A stretch of 64,000 bases of DNA, taken from contig CAIIXF020000006.1 in assembly GCA_903813345.2 (NCBI GenBank), forward strand, positions 13,086,348-13,150,347, read 5' to 3'. Within the stretch, counting starts at the first letter, position 1. Each line of letters begins with the position of its first letter. The notes below the pieces were generated by a model. That model saw only the letters and a program-made list of their open reading frames with translations, was not told the origin of the DNA and ran no database searches. Of this stretch, positions 1,978-64,000 are shown one piece after another. This DNA comes from Owenia fusiformis. Lineage: Eukaryota > Annelida > Polychaeta > Sabellida > Oweniidae. Position numbers and translations under genes: made by a program.

Positions 1978-4900
1978 CTGGAAAATATTCGAGGTCTTAA
2001 CTCCTAACAGTCTGGATTCGCACCTATCACATTCTAATGCATGTCTTTATTGTCCAGATTTAAAGGAGGTTCAAGTTCACTATTTTTCGATAACATGTGT
2101 GTTGTATGAGTATACTCACGATCAGACATCAAGGTCAGTTGCTTGAGTATTCACTCAATGGTAGACTACTGAGTTAAAGGCATAATGTAGTTATCTAAGG
2201 GGAAATTGAGAGGTGACACAAATATAAGGGAACAACTATAATATGAAGAAGTCCTTGTGCCTTTTAGTGGAAAACAGCAAAGAAATACAAGAACAGAAAC
2301 ATTTTGTAAAAAATATTCAGATTAAGATTAACCAGGTCATTGCCCTGTTTATTATATCTAATAGTCTAAGTGGAGATTACAAGAAAATAGAATTGTAATG
2401 AAAATCCTAATGTCTTACCCTTCCATAATATTTATAATGAAGAACATCACCCAAGAAAGCAAAGGCAGTGATGCATATGCCACACAACAGGATGATGAGG
2501 GGGGCTGCAAACATTGGCACAGTGATAGGAATAATCCCAGAATCGTCCTTGCCCTTGGTGAGCCATGTAGCTGGAGTAGGTGACTCCACTGTGTTCTCTC
2601 TATAGCAGTCTCCCCACCATATTCTCTCAAGGTCATCAAGGTCACCCTGTTCCTGCATTTCTGAATAACAGTATGAGGATATCCACTGATTTAGTCTGAT
2701 TTGATTTTTATAAGATTTTTCGTTGGAAAATAATTCAATTCCAGGTCTATCCTCTAACAGTGTCAAGATATAGGGAGAGAAAATATTCTAGCATAGTTCC
2801 TCCATTCAGAAATCATTATCACAATCTAAAACAGCGAGACCATGGGACGATTAATTCATAAACTGAAGTCATAACAATTAGCACTAAATACATGTTACAA
2901 TACATTACCTAGAGTTGCCTGATGAAATGGTTCTAGTATATCTTCACTTATGTTTTTCCCTACAGCTATACCATATCCCCTGGTATGTAATGGCTCACCA
3001 ACAGATATTAAATCACAGGGCTTCTGATTAATGTACGACTTCACCAATAATTTCTCAACCAAAAGGGCATAACTTTCATTTCGTACTTTGGCTATTCCCT
3101 CTTCAAGAGAATTCACAATGTTCTTTTCTTGTTTGTCTATGTATGCTATCATCAAATGGTACATCATTCCATGTCTTTTCTTGAAATATGCATCTGTGCT
3201 TGAGTCTCTAATCCATCCAAAATTCACGAGGACAGGATCCTGGGAAAATAAGTCCTCTATGCTGTTGATAATGTGATGTCGTTGAGGGGGTGGAGCTGTA
3301 GCAGAGATTGACAGGCAGTTCACGAGGCTTCCAATGTACGTCACCAATGTCAGTGTGACAAAAACAAACCAGAAACTAGAGAGGATTTTGGCTGCTATGG
3401 AATGTGGGGATCTTTCAAAACCTAAAATGAACATTATGTAATATAATAGTTTTTATATTATAGAGATATGCATATTACACATCTCAGTCTAAAATATATG
3501 TATATAAAATGAATAAAAAATGAACAGCTTTATTTTCCACATGCCTGAATTTGAAATTTCAAATTTGAATGCTAAATTTAACATAAGCTCAAAGAATTCT
3601 TCAATCAAGATATCATAGAGTTAAATACAGTAAATGCTCCAAAAGGGGGCATCCAGTTGGCAAACTTTTGGAGGGGTGTATACCTTGCCATTGCAGAGTA
3701 GTGAAGACAAACCATAAAGATCCTTGAAAGGTAAAAGCTTCAGCCTCTCTCCTGTCTATGCGACCTCGTACAGCCATAGTTCCATACTCATATGGGTTAT
3801 AATGGTTGCATATCCATAGTAACAAAGTCGTCTAAATAAATGTATAATGATGATTTTGCAACATAAATGATTTCTATATGGCAGATATATTCATATAGTG
3901 ACATGACTCCCACCTCCTCTCACTGTGTACAATTTATGCTACACTCCCCTCAAAAGGTTTGGCAATACTAACTCTCACATTGAACCACATGTTAAAGCCT
4001 GTTTTTGTTCGGTGTTAACATCATTAAATTGCATAAACTTCCAGCTTTATGAAAAAAAAAAAAAAAAAAAATTTAGAAAAACTCTAAATCAAACAATACT
4101 AGGCTTTAACATACTTATCCAATGAGAAGTCAAAGATGTCAAACTTTAAGAAAAGGATGTATGTACTATAAACTGAATCTGTGATTCAATAGATTCTCAC
4201 CAACAAAAATGCAGCAATTGTTATCAACCACAGTCCAGTTGAGAAAGGTTTTAAGACAGAGAATCCTGCTAGCTGGGCTGCTGCTACTTCTGTCTTTGAT
4301 GGTCTTCGTATTAGAATTGTGATCCCTGTCTGTTGTAATGGATGGATAAAGTAAGCAGCTTTTGATGTTTCTGGAGTTATGAGTATTGGGGCTGCTACCA
4401 CATCTGCACCCTAAAACAATCAGTAAAGCACTCTGAAACAATCAGTAAAGTACTCTGAAACGATCAGTAATGCACTCTGAAACAATCAGTGAAGTACTCT
4501 GAAACAATCAGTAATGCACTCTGAAACAACCAGTAAAGCACTCTGAAACAATCAGTAAAGTACCCTGATACAATCAGTAATGCACTCTGAAACAATCAGT
4601 AAAGTACTCTGAAACAATCAGTAGTGCACTCTGAAACAATCAGTAAAGCACTTTGATACAATCAGTAATGCACTCTGAAACAATCAGTAAAGCACTCTGA
4701 AACAATCAGTAAAGTACTCTGAAACAATCAGAAAAGCACTCTGAAAAATAAGCAAATCACTCTGAAACAAGAACTTTAAACGAAGCAGGTCTATACTGAA
4801 CTTGCATCAGATAGCCACACAATCCATTGTTGATGTTACAGCTTACATCAAAATTTATAATCTAAAATGGAGGTTTCATGACCTCGTTGGAGTTTAAATG

Positions 4901-25960: not shown

Positions 25961-26332
25961 TGCATTGTGGGAGATATTTATGTAATGACTATATTTATTT
26001 ATTTCCGTCTATCAGGCCCCTAAAAAAATTGCGTATAAGTCTATCCGATTCAATGGGATAGTCTTCAAAGAGGTAATTTACACAATGCTCATATGCATTG
26101 TGGGAGATATTTATGTAATGAATTTCCGTCTATCAAGCCCCTAAAAGAATTGCGTATAAGTCTATCCGATTCAATGGGATAGTCTTCAAAGAGGTAATTT
26201 ACACAATGCTCATATGCATTGTGGGAGATATTTATGTAATGAATTTCCGTCTATCACGCCCCTAAAAGAATTGCGTATAAGTCTATCCGATTCAATGGGA
26301 TAGTCTTCAAAGAGGTAATTTACACAATGCTC
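25961..26332. repeat. Three tandem copies of a unit of about 121 bp
   Basis: Units start tgcattgtgggagat at 25961, 26094 and 26215. The first is 12 bases longer (extra tatatttattta). The copies are otherwise nearly identical, so the array is young. The third copy runs straight into the MITE at 26331. Confidence 0.9.
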
Positions 26333-26536
26333 AGGCCCGTAGCCAGGGGGGGTTCGCAGGGTTCGGGCTAACCCCCCCTGGCCAAAAATTCTTTCAAAAT
26401 CATGCAATTTTTGACCATTTTGAGCAATCCTCAAGTGATTTTAGCCTAATTTGGGCCAAAATTGTCAAATGTGAACCCCCCCTGGAAATTTTTGAAAATT
26501 GAACCCCTCCTTGGCAAATCCTGGCTACGGGCCTGA
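26331..26536. mobile_element. 206-bp MITE with perfect 17-base inverted ends
   Basis: tcaggcccgtagccagg (26331-26347) and cctggctacgggcctga (26520-26536) are exact inverted copies. The interior is G-rich on the left and C-rich on the right. A target duplication is unclear (atgct on the left, atgcg on the right). Confidence 0.85.
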
Positions 26537-57400: not shown

Positions 57401-60400
57401 TAGTTTGTCATAATGCAACAACATGTTGAAACATGGAACAGATATTCTCCCAGGGCTTAGAAACATTTACAAATGTTAGAGGCATTCTATAATAAGATGC
57501 AACAAGACATTCTTTTCTAGTTGGAGAATATAAGAGGGTATTCTATTGTCGAATATAATGAGGCATTCCATTCTCATCTATGGGGCATTTTTTCCAAGAA
57601 CACAACATGTCACGAGGATATGTTTAATAGGCTTGTGTTTTCTATATATACTATATGCTAGTACTATCTATATATTTTGTATACTAGTATTACATTTCTT
57701 AATTCAACACTGAAATTCTAAGACTTTCATTTAAAGTAGAACTGTTGAATGACCTGTGATTGATTTGTAACCAAAATCTTCAATCATTAGTTCAGATTTT
57801 ATTCAACACACTTTTTGAGTTACATGAACTTATCTTTTAAATGTAACTTCATGTAGTTATTTTAAGGCTTGATATATTTTCTCAATCTCATTAATATACA
57901 TTAATCATCATTAGATTACAAGCTAATCATAAATATAAAATTATAAAACATGCAGATATAAAGCAAAGGATATAGATATTTGTTTGCAATATGTAGTTTG
58001 TAAAATATAAAACATCAAGAATTTTTAGAAACGAGCCTATATGTTTTAACACAGCATAATTGTATGATATATGAGTATAGTATACTATAAGTACATGTAT
58101 GTACGGAATCTCAAGCATTTTGTATGCATGGTATAATATAAGACACCTGTTGTATATTATTTAAGAACATGTAATTTTGGAGAATGTAACTTATTTGGAG
58201 GCCTGTTACTAGTCAAGCGTGTGTTCTGATATTAAGGGACCTGTTATTTTGTATGATTATGAATGGACTTGTTATTTTTTGCTTGATTATTAATGGATCT
58301 GTTATTTTGTGTTATTGCAGGCAATGGCCAGAGCTGCGGGCGAACCATCCAGAGATTCCCTGAGAAAGATTGGGATGACTGTCCCTATACACAAGGCATT
58401 GAACTGGTAGGTCTTTTTTAGCTATTTTTTAGCTATTTTTTATGCTATTTTTTATGCTATTTCTATTAAAAATATCGATGAATAGCCAAATTTAGATATT
58501 TCAAGATTATCCAGAGTGTTATGTTTCGGTGGTTGGTTCATGGTGTTTGGCATTAGACAGTTGGTGTTTGGTGTGTGTAACAAATGGCAGGTGGTGACAT
58601 TTTGTTTCTTTTTTATTCTATTATCTTCTCTATTGTTTCATTTTAAAACATGAGCTTTGACCCCATTAGACTTGAATATGTTTCTTATTTTTACAGATTA
58701 GTTTAATTAGATCTCACCATTCAACAAATAACTTTAACCTTATGGTTCATATATCTCAAAAATACTGTTTAGAATATCATTAAAATGCTCATTGTTTTGG
58801 AAAGCAAATATCTTATTGTATTGGAAACTTTCAAATATTTTTGATTAATTTGTAGAATAAAAGTAAACACTCTGTCTAAATTATATTTCAGTTTTGCCAG
58901 CCAACAGGATGGGATCTTTCCTCCAAGCGCCAAGAGCCAACATTTTTCGTATCAGTGTTGACGGACATTGATGCAGATCGTCACTATCTGAGTTGTTTGA
59001 CTTTCCACGAGGGGGTTCCACTGACTGCCGTCCCCAAACCAGATGAGTCTGATGAAGTCCCAGAGAATAATCACAATAACCATATCGTGCAGCCCTCTAT
59101 GATGTTCGCTCCAAAGTCTCTTGTTCTCATATCATCCCATGACTCATTTGAGACTTTAAGGGTAATTTTGTTTGGATTTATTTTCACGGAGGAGTTGTAA
59201 TGGAATGAATTAAACTGCAGTAGTATTTCAAATTCTTCAGAGTTGAGAATTAGACGTTGGTAATATATGTTTTCTTTGGGAGCATTTTTCTTTTTCCATA
59301 CATTGAACATTAATAAAGGTTTGTGAAAAAAATTGAAATATTTTTCAAATTGTGATTGCTGCAAGTAGAACCCTTAAGCAAAGTTATACAAAAAGAAGAG
59401 AGTTTAAAATGTTATAATATACTTTCAGCAAGTATTGCCAAAATGGATTAAAATATTCAACTTTTTGGGAGAACAAGTTTCTGTGAATTCTCGTGATTTT
59501 CATAATTCTGAAGAATTTCAAAGCTTAAAAAGCTAATGTCAGTCACCAATATTTGTAATTTCCTTTTCAGAATTGTCTAGGTCTGATCTACACAGTTTAT
59601 ATTGAAAACATCCCGAATGTCCAAATAGAAACACTTATTGGAAACATACTCAGTTCAGTACAGGTGCCGCCACCTGGTAAGTATAACATTATTTATGTCA
59701 CGTAAAAAGTAAAATTATTTCAACTTTGTTCTCATTTCAAATTCAGTCAAAGTTAGTGTATTGAATACAGAACAATTGTTAGACAATTAAAGTAAAAGTC
59801 TATCAGCTGATCATGTTGTTACCCTTTGTTCTTTCTTAATAACACATAACATATGCTTATGGGGTCACACATTGCATTCCAGGGGGTCCACAAGTTCGGT
59901 TCTCAATAGGAGCAGGGGACAGGCAGGCTCTGCAACCTCCACTCTCTCATACAATTCCTACTACTAATGAAACTGTAGCCACACTCTTTCAACAATTATG
60001 TAAGTACCATAGTCCTTGTAAGAGGAAGGAAAAGAAATGCATGATATCATTGGCTCATTGCATGTCTCAATAACACAGAAGCCATGCTATTATATGTTAT
60101 GAGTACCATTCATATTGTAACACGTAAAGTAGCTTTGGAAAGGACATTAATTAATGTGGAAATTAATGTGTGTACCTTTGTCTAAATGTGCCACATATTG
60201 TCATATGGAAGTAGCTTTGGAAAGGAATGAAACTACATTATGTTCAACAGTATGTGTATCTTACATAGTGTTTGAAGCTAAGCTTGTCATATAAAGAGCT
60301 TTGAAGAATTTCAGGAAAAGCCAAGGAGTGAAGAAATACAACAATTCAAATGAATCCTATCAGTTTGCTTAATATAGTCTTTCATCAGATCTACCTTACT

Positions 60401-62447
60401 ATCAATTCCCCGTAGAAGGTTTATACACATCATAGTCTATCAAACATCAAATAATAAACCGCATTCTTATTTTCAGCAATCAACACCATCATCCAGTTGT
60501 TCTGTGCAGCACTATCAGACCACAAGATTCTGTTCCTGTCCAACAGCTACAATAGACTCACTTCAGCTTGCCAGGCTCTCACAGCTCTCCTATATCCCTT
60601 CAAATATACGTAAGTCATCTAATACATTTGATTGACATGTCTGTGGGAAACATACTTAATTGTGTTGAAATGTAAGAAAAATGAAGCTATTTATTCACAT
60701 TTTTGAGAGAAATATGAGGAAATATAAGCCTTTTGGCAACTACAGAAATATTTTTGTTAATTGGTGGCCTTCAAGTTGCTTTGTATATCCATATGATGTT
60801 ATATACTATACTACATTATAATGTTCTCATTTCTTCAGTTATGTGTACATCCCAGTCTTACCCGCCCACCTCATTGAAGTACTGAACACACCAACCCCAT
60901 TCATTGCTGGAGTCCATGGATCTCTGAAGCTGGAAGTACAAGATCTGCTAGATGTGATAATATGTGACCTAGATGGTGGTAGCGTAATGATACCAGAGTG
61001 TGTGCAGTTGTCTATTATACCAGAACCTGCACATACTAGAGTCACTGATGCTCTTAAAAAGGTATGCCTTAAATTGAAAACTCATAAATTGAAAAGTGAT
61101 ATTCTTGAATTAGGGTGATCTACTTGTCTCACATTCTGCAAATTGATGATGAACATCTGAGATAATATACATGTAATATCCAATATTTGAAGATTTGTCA
61201 TTGTAAGCAATTTATCTTTATATTGGTTGTTCATATTAGTACACTTATGTTGTATTCTTTTTTACAGTTGCTACACCCCGATCTCTCATGGGCAGACAAG
61301 GCCTTTCCTCCCTCCCCCTCATCAATGAAGACAACAGCACGAGATATGTTAGATAAAGAAATTAGGGCTGTGTTTTTACGACTTTTTGCTGAAATCCTGA
61401 TTGGCTATCGGTCGTGTCTTACTCTCATACGAATTCACCCTGAACCCTTCATCACTTTCCACAAGGTAAGCAAATGAAAAATTGTAAAATATTTCAACGT
61501 AGTCTAGTGCAACACAGTCTGGATAATTTCCCAAGGGTGTCATATAAATCAAAAAAATGAAATCTCAGTTTTATGTGAGCTACATTAAAATATATAAAGA
61601 GGAACAATCCAAAATTAGAATTATTGATCTGTGAACTGTGTAGAAAAATATGAGGATGAATTGTTGTATGAAAATAGAAAAATTAAAATAAAAAGTGTTC
61701 AAATATATTAGACATCTGATGAAAACAAAGATGAAAAAAATAAGAGCCAATATTTTTTAAAATTTCAGGCCAACTTCCTTGGTCATAGAGGTCTTGTGGA
61801 AGATGATTTCATGACCAAGATGCTTGACAGCATGTGCTTCAGTGCATTTGTCTCGGAGAGGGGACCCCCATATAGAATCTGTGATATTTACGATGAGGTG
61901 GGCTTTCTTATTTATTATTCCTCACACTATGTAATGTTTGTTGCCAGAAATTGCACCATTTCTATTTAAAGACTGGATAATTTGAGTTTGGTCAAATGTT
62001 TTTAAGAATATTGAAAACATTTGAGGTTATCATGACCTGTTTAGAAAATATACAGTAATGATTTTAAAATTATGAACATTCATCTGAATTATAGAAATAC
62101 AATGTACAAGAAAGTACTATTTATAGATTTTTCATCAATTTTTTCCCTGAAATTATTGATATTTTCCTATGCTTATGATAGACATTTTAATTGTAATTCA
62201 ATCATTTAGAAAAATAAATGTCTATAATAAGTTCAATAATTCTTTTTACTTTGAAAAATGTAACCACAATTTTCTTGATTTTGATATTTATTTTCACTGA
62301 AACAGTGAAAATGAATGAATGAAAAATTGATTTTATATTCGTGTTCAGGTGTTTGCCAGTATGCAGACTGTGATAAATGAGGAGAGGTTGTCCAATGAAG
62401 CAATGATGAACCATATAAAACAGATAGCCCAACAGCTTTACATCAAT
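27407..62447 (+). CDS. Sbf: SBF1/SBF2 (MTMR5/MTMR13) orthologue, 5' part: DENN module
   Basis: Ten exons (27407-27461, 58321-58406, 58892-59161, 59571-59676, 59883-59999, 60477-60609, 60839-61061, 61268-61465, 61769-61897, 62349-62447) join in frame to 472 codons. The product begins [18 protein letters not shown] and continues [90 protein letters not shown] and GLVEDDF...SERGPPYR. These are diagnostic of SBF1/SBF2: uDENN about 1-150, cDENN about 180-330, dDENN about 345-470. Vertebrate proteins are about 1850 residues, with GRAM, inactive myotubularin phosphatase and PH domains that would lie beyond this window. Family role: guanine exchange for Rab GTPases (Rab28, Rab21) and partner of active myotubularins. 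SBF1 versus SBF2 cannot be assigned; many invertebrates have one copy. Confidence 0.96.
27742..28530. mobile_element. 789-bp DNA element with hairpin ends and 10-bp target duplication
   Basis: The ends TAGTATGTATCC and GGATACAGTCTA are imperfect inverted repeats. The 10-base direct repeats ggtcctcggt (27732-27741 and 28531-28540) are identical. Just inside each end is a self-complementary hairpin (27755-27781 and about 28496-28515). A 9-11 bp duplication suggests a Mutator-like non-autonomous element; the TAG ends would also suit other superfamilies. No transposase seen. Confidence 0.75.
28795..29035. repeat. Degenerate tandem repeat, about 32 bp
   Basis: Repeats of 'ataccaaatgtctaaatata' followed by 'agaccaatacc', clearest 28795-28890 and resuming at 28976-29035 after an interruption. 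Confidence 0.75.
29226..29715. mobile_element. MITE with gtcatgg-cgtag ends, carrying a nested element
   Basis: gtcatgggcgtag (29226-29238) and ctacgtccatgac (29703-29715) are inverted copies with one mismatch. The interior is split by the 'tggcggatcc' element at 29329-29600. Confidence 0.65.
29329..29600. mobile_element. Nested 'tggcggatcc' element
   Basis: tggcggatccgg and cctggatccgcca are inverted ends. The interior contains runs of G and C and repeated 'ttgggcc' words. cagtgg occurs on both sides and may be the target duplication. Same family as 43711-43893 and probably 41927-42102. Confidence 0.65.
36384..37110. mobile_element. TTAA-flanked MITE, 727 bp
   Basis: TTAA at 36380-36383 and 37111-37114 flanks ends beginning ggtgactgttaacttaatc and ending gattaagttataagttacc, which are imperfect inverted copies. 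It has the same TTAA flanking as the two elements upstream of Sbf, but different ends. Confidence 0.7.
37796..38023. mobile_element. 228-bp MITE with cagggctc ends
   Basis: cagggctctcgccagg and cctggtgagagccctg are inverted with one mismatch. 'gcaccacaccctaaatattt' next to the right end is repeated in inverted orientation in the truncated copy at 38437. ggtta lies on both sides. Confidence 0.75.
38437..38560. mobile_element. Truncated inverted copy of the cagggctc MITE
   Basis: cagggctcccaccagg then aaatatttagggtgtggtg corresponds to the reverse complement of the right end of the 37796-38023 element. The other end is missing. Confidence 0.65.
41927..42102. mobile_element. Element with ggggcggatc end, 'tggcggatcc' family
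   Basis: Left gggcggatctcgg and right ccccatccgc are loosely inverted, with the same 'aatttt...ggcccaa' interior as 43711-43893. Confidence 0.45.
42585..42632. repeat. Dispersed repeat, inverted partner of 24751-24798
   Basis: ccctttgcattcgttt then aacttcgcttctcaaaagag; see the partner entry. 'ttataactagact' occurs on both sides (about 42508 and 42641) and may mark element ends. Confidence 0.55.
43711..43893. mobile_element. 'tggcggatcc' family element
   Basis: tggcggatccagg (43711-43723) and cctggatctgcca (43881-43893) are inverted copies with one mismatch. Confidence 0.65.
45968..46803. mobile_element. Element with atcgcactttga ends and internal repeats of about 145 bp
   Basis: atcgcactttga near 45968 and tcaaagtgcgat near 46792-46803 are inverted ends. 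Three internal units beginning 'aatcttgtcatcaaa' (about 46056, 46201 and 46655) share 'ttacagatgcaagagcagac' and 'gatctgattaggtt'. The left part is GC-rich with gcgggcg repeats. No protein is evident. Confidence 0.75.
51811..51955 (+). repeat. Probable tRNA-derived SINE
   Basis: tagcatattgga resembles an A box, and GGTTCGATCCC at 51867-51877 matches the B-box consensus at about the right spacing. The segment does not fold into a clean tRNA with a matching acceptor stem, so I call it a SINE head with an unrelated tail and not a tRNA gene. Confidence 0.55.
52043..52069. repeat. Homopolymer of 27 cytosines
   Basis: Uninterrupted poly-C followed by ggcccta. Shorter C or G runs occur at 29562-29580, 38238-38252 and 42069-42094. 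Confidence 0.95.
54225..54465 (+). mobile_element. 3' end of a retroposon with poly(A) tail
   Basis: A cagggcc...ggccctg stem-loop (54373-54403), AATAAA at 54429-54434 and an A15 tract at 54451-54465 form a typical LINE or processed-transcript 3' end. No coding sequence is left. Its 5' limit is uncertain. Confidence 0.6.
55361..55423. repeat. Perfect 18-base inverted repeat, 27-base loop
   Basis: atccacggctctagtgac (55361-55378) and gtcactagagccgtggat (55406-55423) are exact inverted copies. Confidence 0.85.
58235..58320 (+). repeat. Sbf: Tandem repeat of about 30 bp in the acceptor region of Sbf exon 2
   Basis: Three units with ggacctgttattttgtatg, ggacttgttattttttgc and ggatctgttattttgtg; the last runs directly into the real acceptor ttattgcag. 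A T-rich splice-acceptor context has therefore been tandemly copied. Confidence 0.7.
58321..58406 (+). CDS. Sbf: Sbf exon 2: uDENN
   Basis: Phase 1 to 0. Encodes [20 protein letters not shown] then [20 protein letters not shown] is a family signature. Confidence 0.95.
58892..59161 (+). CDS. Sbf: Sbf exon 3: uDENN
   Basis: 90 codons, [20 protein letters not shown] to [24 protein letters not shown] and [10 protein letters not shown] are conserved. The acidic, variable loop between them ([14 protein letters not shown]) differs between species. Confidence 0.96.
59571..59676 (+). CDS. Sbf: Sbf exon 4
   Basis: [20 protein letters not shown] then [16 protein letters not shown], phase 0 to 1. LGLIYTVY ends the uDENN region. 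Confidence 0.95.
59883..59999 (+). CDS. Sbf: Sbf exon 5
   Basis: [20 protein letters not shown] then [18 protein letters not shown], phase 1 to 1. GAGDRQ and LFQQL are conserved at the start of cDENN. Confidence 0.95.
60477..60609 (+). CDS. Sbf: Sbf exon 6: cDENN
   Basis: [20 protein letters not shown] then [20 protein letters not shown], phase 1 to 2. Confidence 0.95.
60839..61061 (+). CDS. Sbf: Sbf exon 7: cDENN
   Basis: [20 protein letters not shown] then [20 protein letters not shown] and [16 protein letters not shown]. This is the best conserved stretch of the DENN fold. Phase 2 to 0. Confidence 0.97.
61268..61465 (+). CDS. Sbf: Sbf exon 8: dDENN
   Basis: 66 codons, phase 0. [55 protein letters not shown]. 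Confidence 0.97.
61769..61897 (+). CDS. Sbf: Sbf exon 9: dDENN
   Basis: 43 codons, phase 0. [36 protein letters not shown]. Confidence 0.97.
62349..62447 (+). CDS. Sbf: Sbf exon 10: end of DENN module
   Basis: 33 codons from acceptor gtgttcag: [17 protein letters not shown] then [16 protein letters not shown], donor GTAAGT at 62448. The second half aligns with VKMIKHVRELAEQLFKN of vertebrate SBF2. The last 48 bases are the founder of the downstream array, so other copies of the donor could compete with this one. Confidence 0.92.
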
Positions 62448-64000
62448 GTAAGTAGTACAAAATGTGCAATGATGAACCATATAAAACAGATAGCCCAACA
62501 GCTTTACATCAATGTAAGTATATAACAAAATGTGCAATGATGAACCATATAAAACAGATAGCCCAACAGCTTTACATCAATGTAAGTAGTACAAAATGTG
62601 CAATGGTGAACCATATAAAACAGATAGCCCAACAGCTTTACATCAATGTAAGTATATAACAAAATGTGCAATGATGAACCATATAAAACAGATAGCCCAA
62701 CAGCTTTACATCAATGTAAGTATATAACAAAATGTGCAATGATGAACCATATAAAACAGATAGCCCAACAGCTTTACATCAATGTAAGTAGTACAAAATG
62801 TGCAATGGTGAACCATATAAAACAGATAGCCCAACAGCTTTACATCAATGTAAGTATATAACAAAATGTGCAATGATGAACCATATAAAACAGATAGCCC
62901 AACAGCTTTACATCAATGTAAGTAGTACAAAATGTGCAATGATGAACCATATAAAACAGATAGCCCAACAGCTTTACATCAATGTAAGTATATAACAAAA
63001 TGTGCAATGATGAACCATATAAAACAGATAGCCCAACAGCTTTACATCAATGTAAGTATATAACAAAATGTGCAATGATGAACCATATAAAACAGATAGC
63101 CCAACAGCTTTACATCAATGTAAGTATATAACAAAATGTGCAATGATGAACCATATAAAACAGATAGCCCAACAGCTTTACATCAATGTAAGTATATAAC
63201 AAAATGTGCAATGATGAACCATATAAAACAGATAGCCCAACAGCTTTACATCAATGTAAGTATATAACAAAATGTGCAATGATGAACCATATAAAACAGA
63301 TAGCCCAACAGCTTTACATCAATGTAAGTATATAACAAAATGTGCAATGATGAACCATATAAAACAGATAGCCCAACAGCTTTACATCAATGTAAGTAGT
63401 ACAAAATGTGCAATGGTGAACCATATAAAACAGATAGCCCAACAGCTTTACATCAACGTAAGTATATAACAAAATGTGCAATGATGAACCATATAAAACA
63501 GATAGCCCAACAGCTTTACATCAATGTAAGTAGTACAAAATGAGCAATGATGAACCATATAAAACAGATAGCCCAACAGCTTTACATCAATGTAAGTAGT
63601 ACAAAATGAGCAATGATGAACCATATAAAACAGATAGCCCAACAGCTTTACATCAATGTAAGTAGTACAAAATGAGCAATGATGAACCATATAAAACAGA
63701 TAGCCCAACAGCTTTACATCAACGTAAGTATATAACAAAATGTGCAATGATGAACCATATAAAACAGATAGCCCAACAGCTTTACATCAATGTAAGTAGT
63801 ACAAAATGAGCAATGATGAACCATATAAAACAGATAGCCCAACAGCTTTACATCAATGTAAGTAGTACAAAATGAGCAATGATGAACCATATAAAACAGA
63901 TAGCCCAACAGCTTTACATCAACGTAAGTATATAACAAAATGTGCAATGATGAACCATATAAAACAGATAGCCCAACAGCTTTACATCAATGTAAGTATA
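62400..64000 (+). repeat. Sbf: Tandem array of at least 24 copies of the exon 10 end plus its 5' splice site
   Basis: Each unit has a 48-base exon-like part (gcaatgatgaacc...tcaat) followed by GTAAGT and either AGTACAAAATGT/A (66-base unit) or ATATAACAAAATGT (68-base unit). Starts are 62400, 62466, 62534, 62600, 62668, 62736, 62802, 62870, 62936, 63004, 63072, 63140, 63208, 63276, 63344, 63410, 63478, 63544, 63610, 63676, 63744, 63810, 63876 and 63944. All 24 copies keep GTAAGT. Shared variants (GTG at units 4, 7 and 16; AAC before the donor at 16, 20 and 23; TGA in units 17-19 and 21-22) show that blocks of units were re-amplified. The array continues past the window. Confidence 0.98.

Follow-up and report, generated by a model that had tools for sequence, protein, structure and literature searches.

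The closest described systems are the mirages of amphioxus, found in Adh3, the globin genes BflGb6 and BflGb9, TnC, and PGBD5, in which an exon–intron boundary has undergone minisatellite-like tandem duplication, reportedly without disturbing splicing (PMC3087553, PMC3902484). Human IFI6 is said to employ a pair of downstream repeat units as splice donors (PMC4526556), and in TERT a splicing effect has been ascribed to VNTR6-1, a long intronic variable number tandem repeat (VNTR) with 38-bp units (PMC11830802). In addition, a Rogers-type model attributes intron gain to tandem duplication of AG/GT (cited in PMC3087553), and tandem repeats at exon boundaries have been described in humans (PMC2812944). 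Here, we describe an array of splice donors at an exon end of the Sbf gene in the annelid Owenia fusiformis, located in a 64-kb window (the whole stretch of DNA analysed, 64,000 nucleotides of contig CAIIXF020000006.1, hereafter C6) and continuing beyond it. We take the array to be, most probably, a DNA repeat that is tolerated, and similar arrays are present at other genes of this genome.

A minisatellite of splice donors in Sbf

Within the window, Tandem Repeats Finder (TRF) detected 23.8 copies of a 68-bp unit (96% matches, score 2915). The array crosses the window end, and its entire span, C6:13148747-13151719 (positions 748-3720 of L009, the 9-kb stretch around it), comprises 44.1 copies. 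Each unit joins 48 nt of exon end to 18 or 20 nt of intron start, giving 66 or 68 bp, which bears out the claim of the earlier note on this DNA that the exon end was amplified together with its donor; the note counted 24 or more copies, and the full array has about 44. As in a mirage, the tandem units straddle the exon–intron boundary of a gene (according to the unit list and the Sbf exons found with Pfam), and the copies carry splice signals, with GTAAGT at 43 of 44 donor positions and ATAAGT at the other (#42). The letters around these donors (a slash marks the exon–intron junction) are AAT/GT in 26 copies, AAC/GT in 17, and AAC/AT in one. The 43 full units form a mosaic of 12 types in which like units cluster: identical neighbours make up 16 of 42 pairs versus 9.1 in shuffles, and at a lag of three units 18 of 40 pairs are identical versus 8.7. 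Such clustering would be expected if copies had spread locally through unequal exchange. The intron start GTAAGTAGTACAAAATGT is common to the first and last copies, and unique intron sequence resumes past the last one. The array is known here from one haplotype; queries with the array and its 3′ flank found no second copy of the locus, the 5′ flank not having been searched and a missing match being no proof. Shortly 3′ of the array (L009 ~3797-4170) lies a dispersed, internally tandem repeat with 3875 candidate places in the genome, 40 of which were scored.

Judging by its domain matches, the host gene is Sbf (MTMR5/13-type), the sole Sbf found, because its exons match the DENN module in Pfam and because SBF2 and myotubularin domains come further along C6. 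Joined to the next exon, which starts at L009:4389, the nine exons found inside the window (Table 1) match uDENN, DENN, and dDENN, the last slightly under its cut-off, and the closest relative with a solved structure is DENND1B (3tw8). The SBF2 domain is matched only at C6:13157255-13164496, downstream of the array, and myotubularin exons lie ~27 kb beyond the array on the same strand, other myotubularin genes being on other contigs. A second Sbf gene, sought by its SBF2 domain, was not found, a missing match again being no proof.

Table 1. Coordinates of the Sbf array, its host exons and donors, and comparable arrays (window positions unless a contig or locus is given; a slash marks a splice junction)
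Feature	Location	Strand	Evidence and remarks
Host exon of Sbf, 99 nt	62349..62447	+	Last of nine exons located in the window; ends ...LYIN, phase 0 at end; acceptor TTCAG/, donor /GTAAGT, open frame continuous with neighbours
Eight Sbf exons upstream of host exon	58321-58406, 58892-59161, 59571-59676, 59883-59999, 60477-60609, 60839-61061, 61268-61465, 61769-61897	+	Open frame; Pfam DENN 4.2e-53
Tandem array, 66/68-bp units	62400..64000, on to C6:13151719	+	TRF and complete unit list
Donor 1, GTAAGT	62448..62453	+	Most likely the used donor, judging by exon length and product
Donor 2	62514..62519	+	In frame, +22 residues by translation
TAA met by any exon running past donor 2	62523..62525	+	Translation
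Donor-bearing arrays at apparent coding exon ends	L010-L015, L022-L025, L027-L029, L038		Pfam for some, others open frame only

The reading frame limits what the donors can yield, and translation agrees with the earlier note on each point. Donor 1 leads to the normal protein, from an intron that would span 3593 nt (L009:796-4388), and donor 2 adds 22 open residues. Donors 3-6, 43, and 44, when translated, all stop after 58 exon residues at the TAA listed in Table 1; donors past the second must all truncate the product, because their exon would pass that codon. The description of these donors as strong did not survive calculation. Although the hexamer is perfect, the site is predicted not to be strong, because its simple duplex with U1 reaches only -5.6 kcal/mol (-5.6 or -5.9 across the array sites), versus -5.3 to -9.5 kcal/mol for the nine located Sbf donors and -12.3 kcal/mol for the reference CAG/GTAAGT; it is among the weakest of the nine, one of which is weaker and one equal.

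The statement that the donors have no matching acceptors holds in that no unit copies a real acceptor, but the array does contain candidate AGs, four per unit. Upstream of three of these, pyrimidines fill 6 of 15 positions; upstream of the fourth, inside GTAAG, they fill 9 of 15, equal to the real next acceptor, and because of this equality weak acceptor use inside the array may be possible. Recursive splicing at the array donors was considered and rejected, since no AG directly precedes the GT in the contexts given above. The array also holds 41 copies of TATAAA, which we take to be a weak variant of the poly(A) signal.

Three further observations concern Sbf or the window at large. Two diverged stretches (L039; C6:13158584-13158736 and 13159109-13159273) match SBF2 positions 115-165 and 114-168 and are candidate duplicated Sbf exons, perhaps mutually exclusive. 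The Sbf exon at 58321-58406 is flanked by small tandem repeats (58230-58310 and 58414-58462), each within ~10 nt of one of its ends. At 26001-26333, 2.8 copies of a 121-bp unit with 98% matches are probably a young tandem duplication.

Similar arrays elsewhere in the genome

As shown on a sample, similar arrays occur at other genes, at both donor and acceptor ends of introns. The whole genome was scanned for three AGGTRAGT motifs 48-78 bp apart, with the reversed motif as control (1264 versus 579 matches), and a second time with the pattern AGGTAAGTA (171 versus 149); since matches are clumped in both scans, these counts do not show that donor arrays outnumber controls. The sample was drawn from among the matches listed (about the first hundred in the first scan), and all counts of sampled arrays below refer to these. 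Those from the first scan form six donor arrays, all within 12 Mb of the start of contig C1; each of the six was retrieved and read, and each stands at the 3′ end of an apparent coding exon with an AG acceptor. The matches listed in the second scan gave ten arrays, of which nine were fetched (C4:11887378, a copy of C4:11838475, was omitted), seven of them at apparent coding exon 3′ ends. Taken together, 13 of the 15 other donor arrays stand at such an end, and the repeat starts within the exon in 11 of the 15; it begins 126 nt beyond the donor of the apparent exon at L015, where it becomes recognisable, and 72 nt beyond it at L027. Pfam supports eight of the 15, control loci not having been put through Pfam: tetraspanin, Muted/BLOC1S5, TauD dioxygenase, and Rieske_4 in the first sample, with no match for L013 and L015, and MRPL52, Cep192_D1 (under its cut-off), UCH, and FAD_binding_4 in the second. 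The array at L023 has ~70 copies, estimated from the span of the matches listed.

Repeats with the control motif occur as well. Among the matches listed, the first 12 Mb of C1 hold four reversed-motif places versus the six donor arrays, and all of C1 holds eight. One of these eight control loci, L038, turned out to hold an exon-end array too, in a gene that resembles thrombospondin repeats (named by reading, without Pfam); L036 has no TRF array, and at L031 the array fills nearly the whole stretch. The corresponding acceptor pattern gave 1008 matches versus 519 in its control. Six acceptor arrays were fetched, of which L016 and L021 were read and the other four used in conservation statistics only. 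These two are the mirror case, since their units carry an acceptor and an exon start, and the last copy runs into an apparent real exon, presumably oxygenase-like at L016 and SLC10A7-like at L021. A crude estimate of the number of donor arrays with the first motif and spacing in the genome is ~75 from ~17 matches per array, or ~250 from six per 12 Mb, reversed-motif arrays being similarly numerous. No report of a genome-wide set of exon-end arrays was found in the open-access literature, which was covered in part. Two exon-end arrays are split by insertions (L010 ~2686-3550 and L014 ~2255-3310), the one in L010 resembling a small transposon in its inverted ends (GAGAGATTTCGCAC / GTGCGAAATCTCTC).

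Origin of the array and choice among its donors

We consider it likely that the Sbf array is a mirage-type minisatellite whose transcript is spliced mostly from donor 1 and to some extent from donor 2, the remaining copies being inert, unstable intron. A short stretch over the exon–intron junction would have been duplicated, possibly by slippage between the similar exon AATGAAGCAAT and intron AATGTACAAT, and the duplicate would then have grown to ~44 copies through unequal exchange. A boundary hot spot is not required, because minisatellites are common in the window (TRF). Such a duplication would spare the true exon and donor 1, the added copies sitting downstream of the true exon end; as both are untouched, splicing from donor 1 would leave the additional copies in the intron. 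Donor 1 is most likely the used one, since it alone gives a short exon together with a normal product. Donor 2 may be used occasionally, transcripts from later donors would be rare and lost to nonsense-mediated decay, and the remaining 42 donor positions are in all likelihood passengers.

Several points weigh against this account. Where two donors are comparable, splicing reportedly favours the intron-proximal one (PMC6002489), a preference that predicts use of donor 44 and hence a truncated product, and the downstream repeat donors of IFI6 are said to be used (PMC4526556). No exon is apparent at two of the 15 sampled arrays, L026 and L030. Finally, across 14 arrays outside Sbf the donor 8-mer varies less than the remainder of the unit (Mantel-Haenszel odds ratio 0.43, z -5.2), and a test on seven arrays including Sbf gave an odds ratio of 0.54 (z -3.6). 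For comparison, the odds ratio was 1.25 (z +1.8) in six reversed-motif arrays and 0.66 (z -1.6) in six acceptor arrays; one of 15 donor arrays and two of eight control loci gave no result in this test. When shared changes were collapsed, P was 0.007 by run events and 0.18 by distinct variants in 11 arrays, 0.019 and 0.15 for the hexamer alone in 12 arrays, and 0.80 and 0.29 in five control arrays, the collapsed test having skipped four of 15 donor arrays and three of eight control loci that had fewer than five units or lacked the motif in their consensus. Because copies are not independent, pooled donor conservation outside Sbf is an equivocal signal and a lead only. At Sbf itself, in favour of the passenger reading, the 44-copy array shows no extra conservation of donor letters relative to the rest of the unit: mismatches to the consensus number 1 in 258 at donor positions +1 to +6 versus 13 in 2504 elsewhere, the hexamer falls at percentile 0.60-0.69 of unit windows, and the most variable letter is the one just before GT.

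A broader proposal, which we regard as unlikely, is that exon-end minisatellites form a standing class, at very roughly at least 100 genes, in which exon definition decides in favour of steady use of the first donor against the intron-proximal preference, while in some arrays the extra donors serve in splicing and are maintained, with copy number tuning isoforms and providing raw material for new exons and introns. For Sbf in particular, the earlier note had suggested that array length tunes its output or that the donors form a platform for the U1 small nuclear ribonucleoprotein (snRNP), and neither idea gained support as a specific property of this gene. Tuning, in which array length would set the shares of donor 1, donor 2, and unproductive products, seems improbable. 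The frame does permit two productive donors while the others truncate, the intronic VNTR of TERT (PMC11830802) and the downstream donors of IFI6 (PMC4526556) offer precedents, and donor letters are somewhat better kept in the arrays pooled elsewhere; against this, the Sbf donors lack extra conservation, the pooled signal is equivocal, and similar arrays stand at unrelated genes.

Recruitment of U1 snRNP, whether to oppose premature polyadenylation (telescripting) or to boost splicing at donor 1, appears very improbable. The 43 GTAAGT sites and the TATAAA copies among them would suit such a role, and a quoted U1 footprint of 23 nt upstream and 12 nt downstream (PMC6002489) means that U1 could occupy each 66/68-bp copy, but pairing at each site is weak and the donors are under no detectable constraint at Sbf. 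It is likewise highly unlikely that the published preference for intron-proximal donors (PMC6002489) prevails, with the last donors dominating to give a ~3-kb exon with an early stop and a damaged or truncated Sbf in this haplotype, since only one Sbf gene was found and its downstream domains are matched, and since amphioxus mirages are said to splice normally (PMC3087553, PMC3902484). Seven arrays (Sbf, L010-L013, L015, and L038) reach their 3′ end within the sequence that was read; compared by eye, six of them carry GTRAGT as their first donor (the exception is GTAAGA in L015) and three as their last (Sbf, L010, and L012), as if the first were kept, a contrast weakened by the frequent decay of repeat ends in any case and by the intact last donor of Sbf. 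An artefact of assembly or copy number is also very unlikely, for although tandem arrays are easily mis-sized, the 9-kb stretch contains no N, its units form a mosaic, and the genome holds further arrays of the same kind.

Implications and comparison with known systems

What deserves attention is the recurrence of such arrays, together with their clash with the reported intron-proximal donor preference (PMC6002489). The Sbf array is a good natural test of how one splice site is chosen among dozens. Should donor 1 be the one in use, every array amounts to a natural experiment with near-identical donors at regular spacing that differ mainly in position, and several genes and unit lengths would allow exon definition to be told apart from intron-proximal preference in living tissue. 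Use of later donors would instead make the arrays unstable genetic switches that act on isoforms and decay. In both cases, they reveal the extent of splice-site duplication that a genome tolerates and are a possible source of new introns, a role proposed for the amphioxus globins (PMC3087553).

The arrays described here share with amphioxus mirages the presence of splice signals in many copies and the involvement of both boundary types (PMC3087553, PMC3902484), but they can hold more copies, 44 at Sbf and about 70 at L023, compared with 6 and 3 in the two BflGb6 haplotypes. The intron-gain model and the human boundary repeats likewise have in common with Sbf a tandem duplication across an exon boundary, with no new intron seen at Sbf. 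TERT VNTR6-1 differs in being tied to a G-quadruplex, its abstract describing no exon-end copies (PMC11830802). Human IFI6 (6-16) resembles Sbf in having an exon-end minisatellite that provides several donors; those of IFI6 are said to be used, whereas at Sbf the frame allows donors 1 and 2 as productive. The IFI6 unit is 12 nt long, unlike the 66/68 bp at Sbf. This splice-donor minisatellite was reportedly described by Turri et al. 1995. The Sbf array belongs to a kind already known from amphioxus and one human gene, and its interest lies in recurrence, copy number, and the test of donor choice that it provides.

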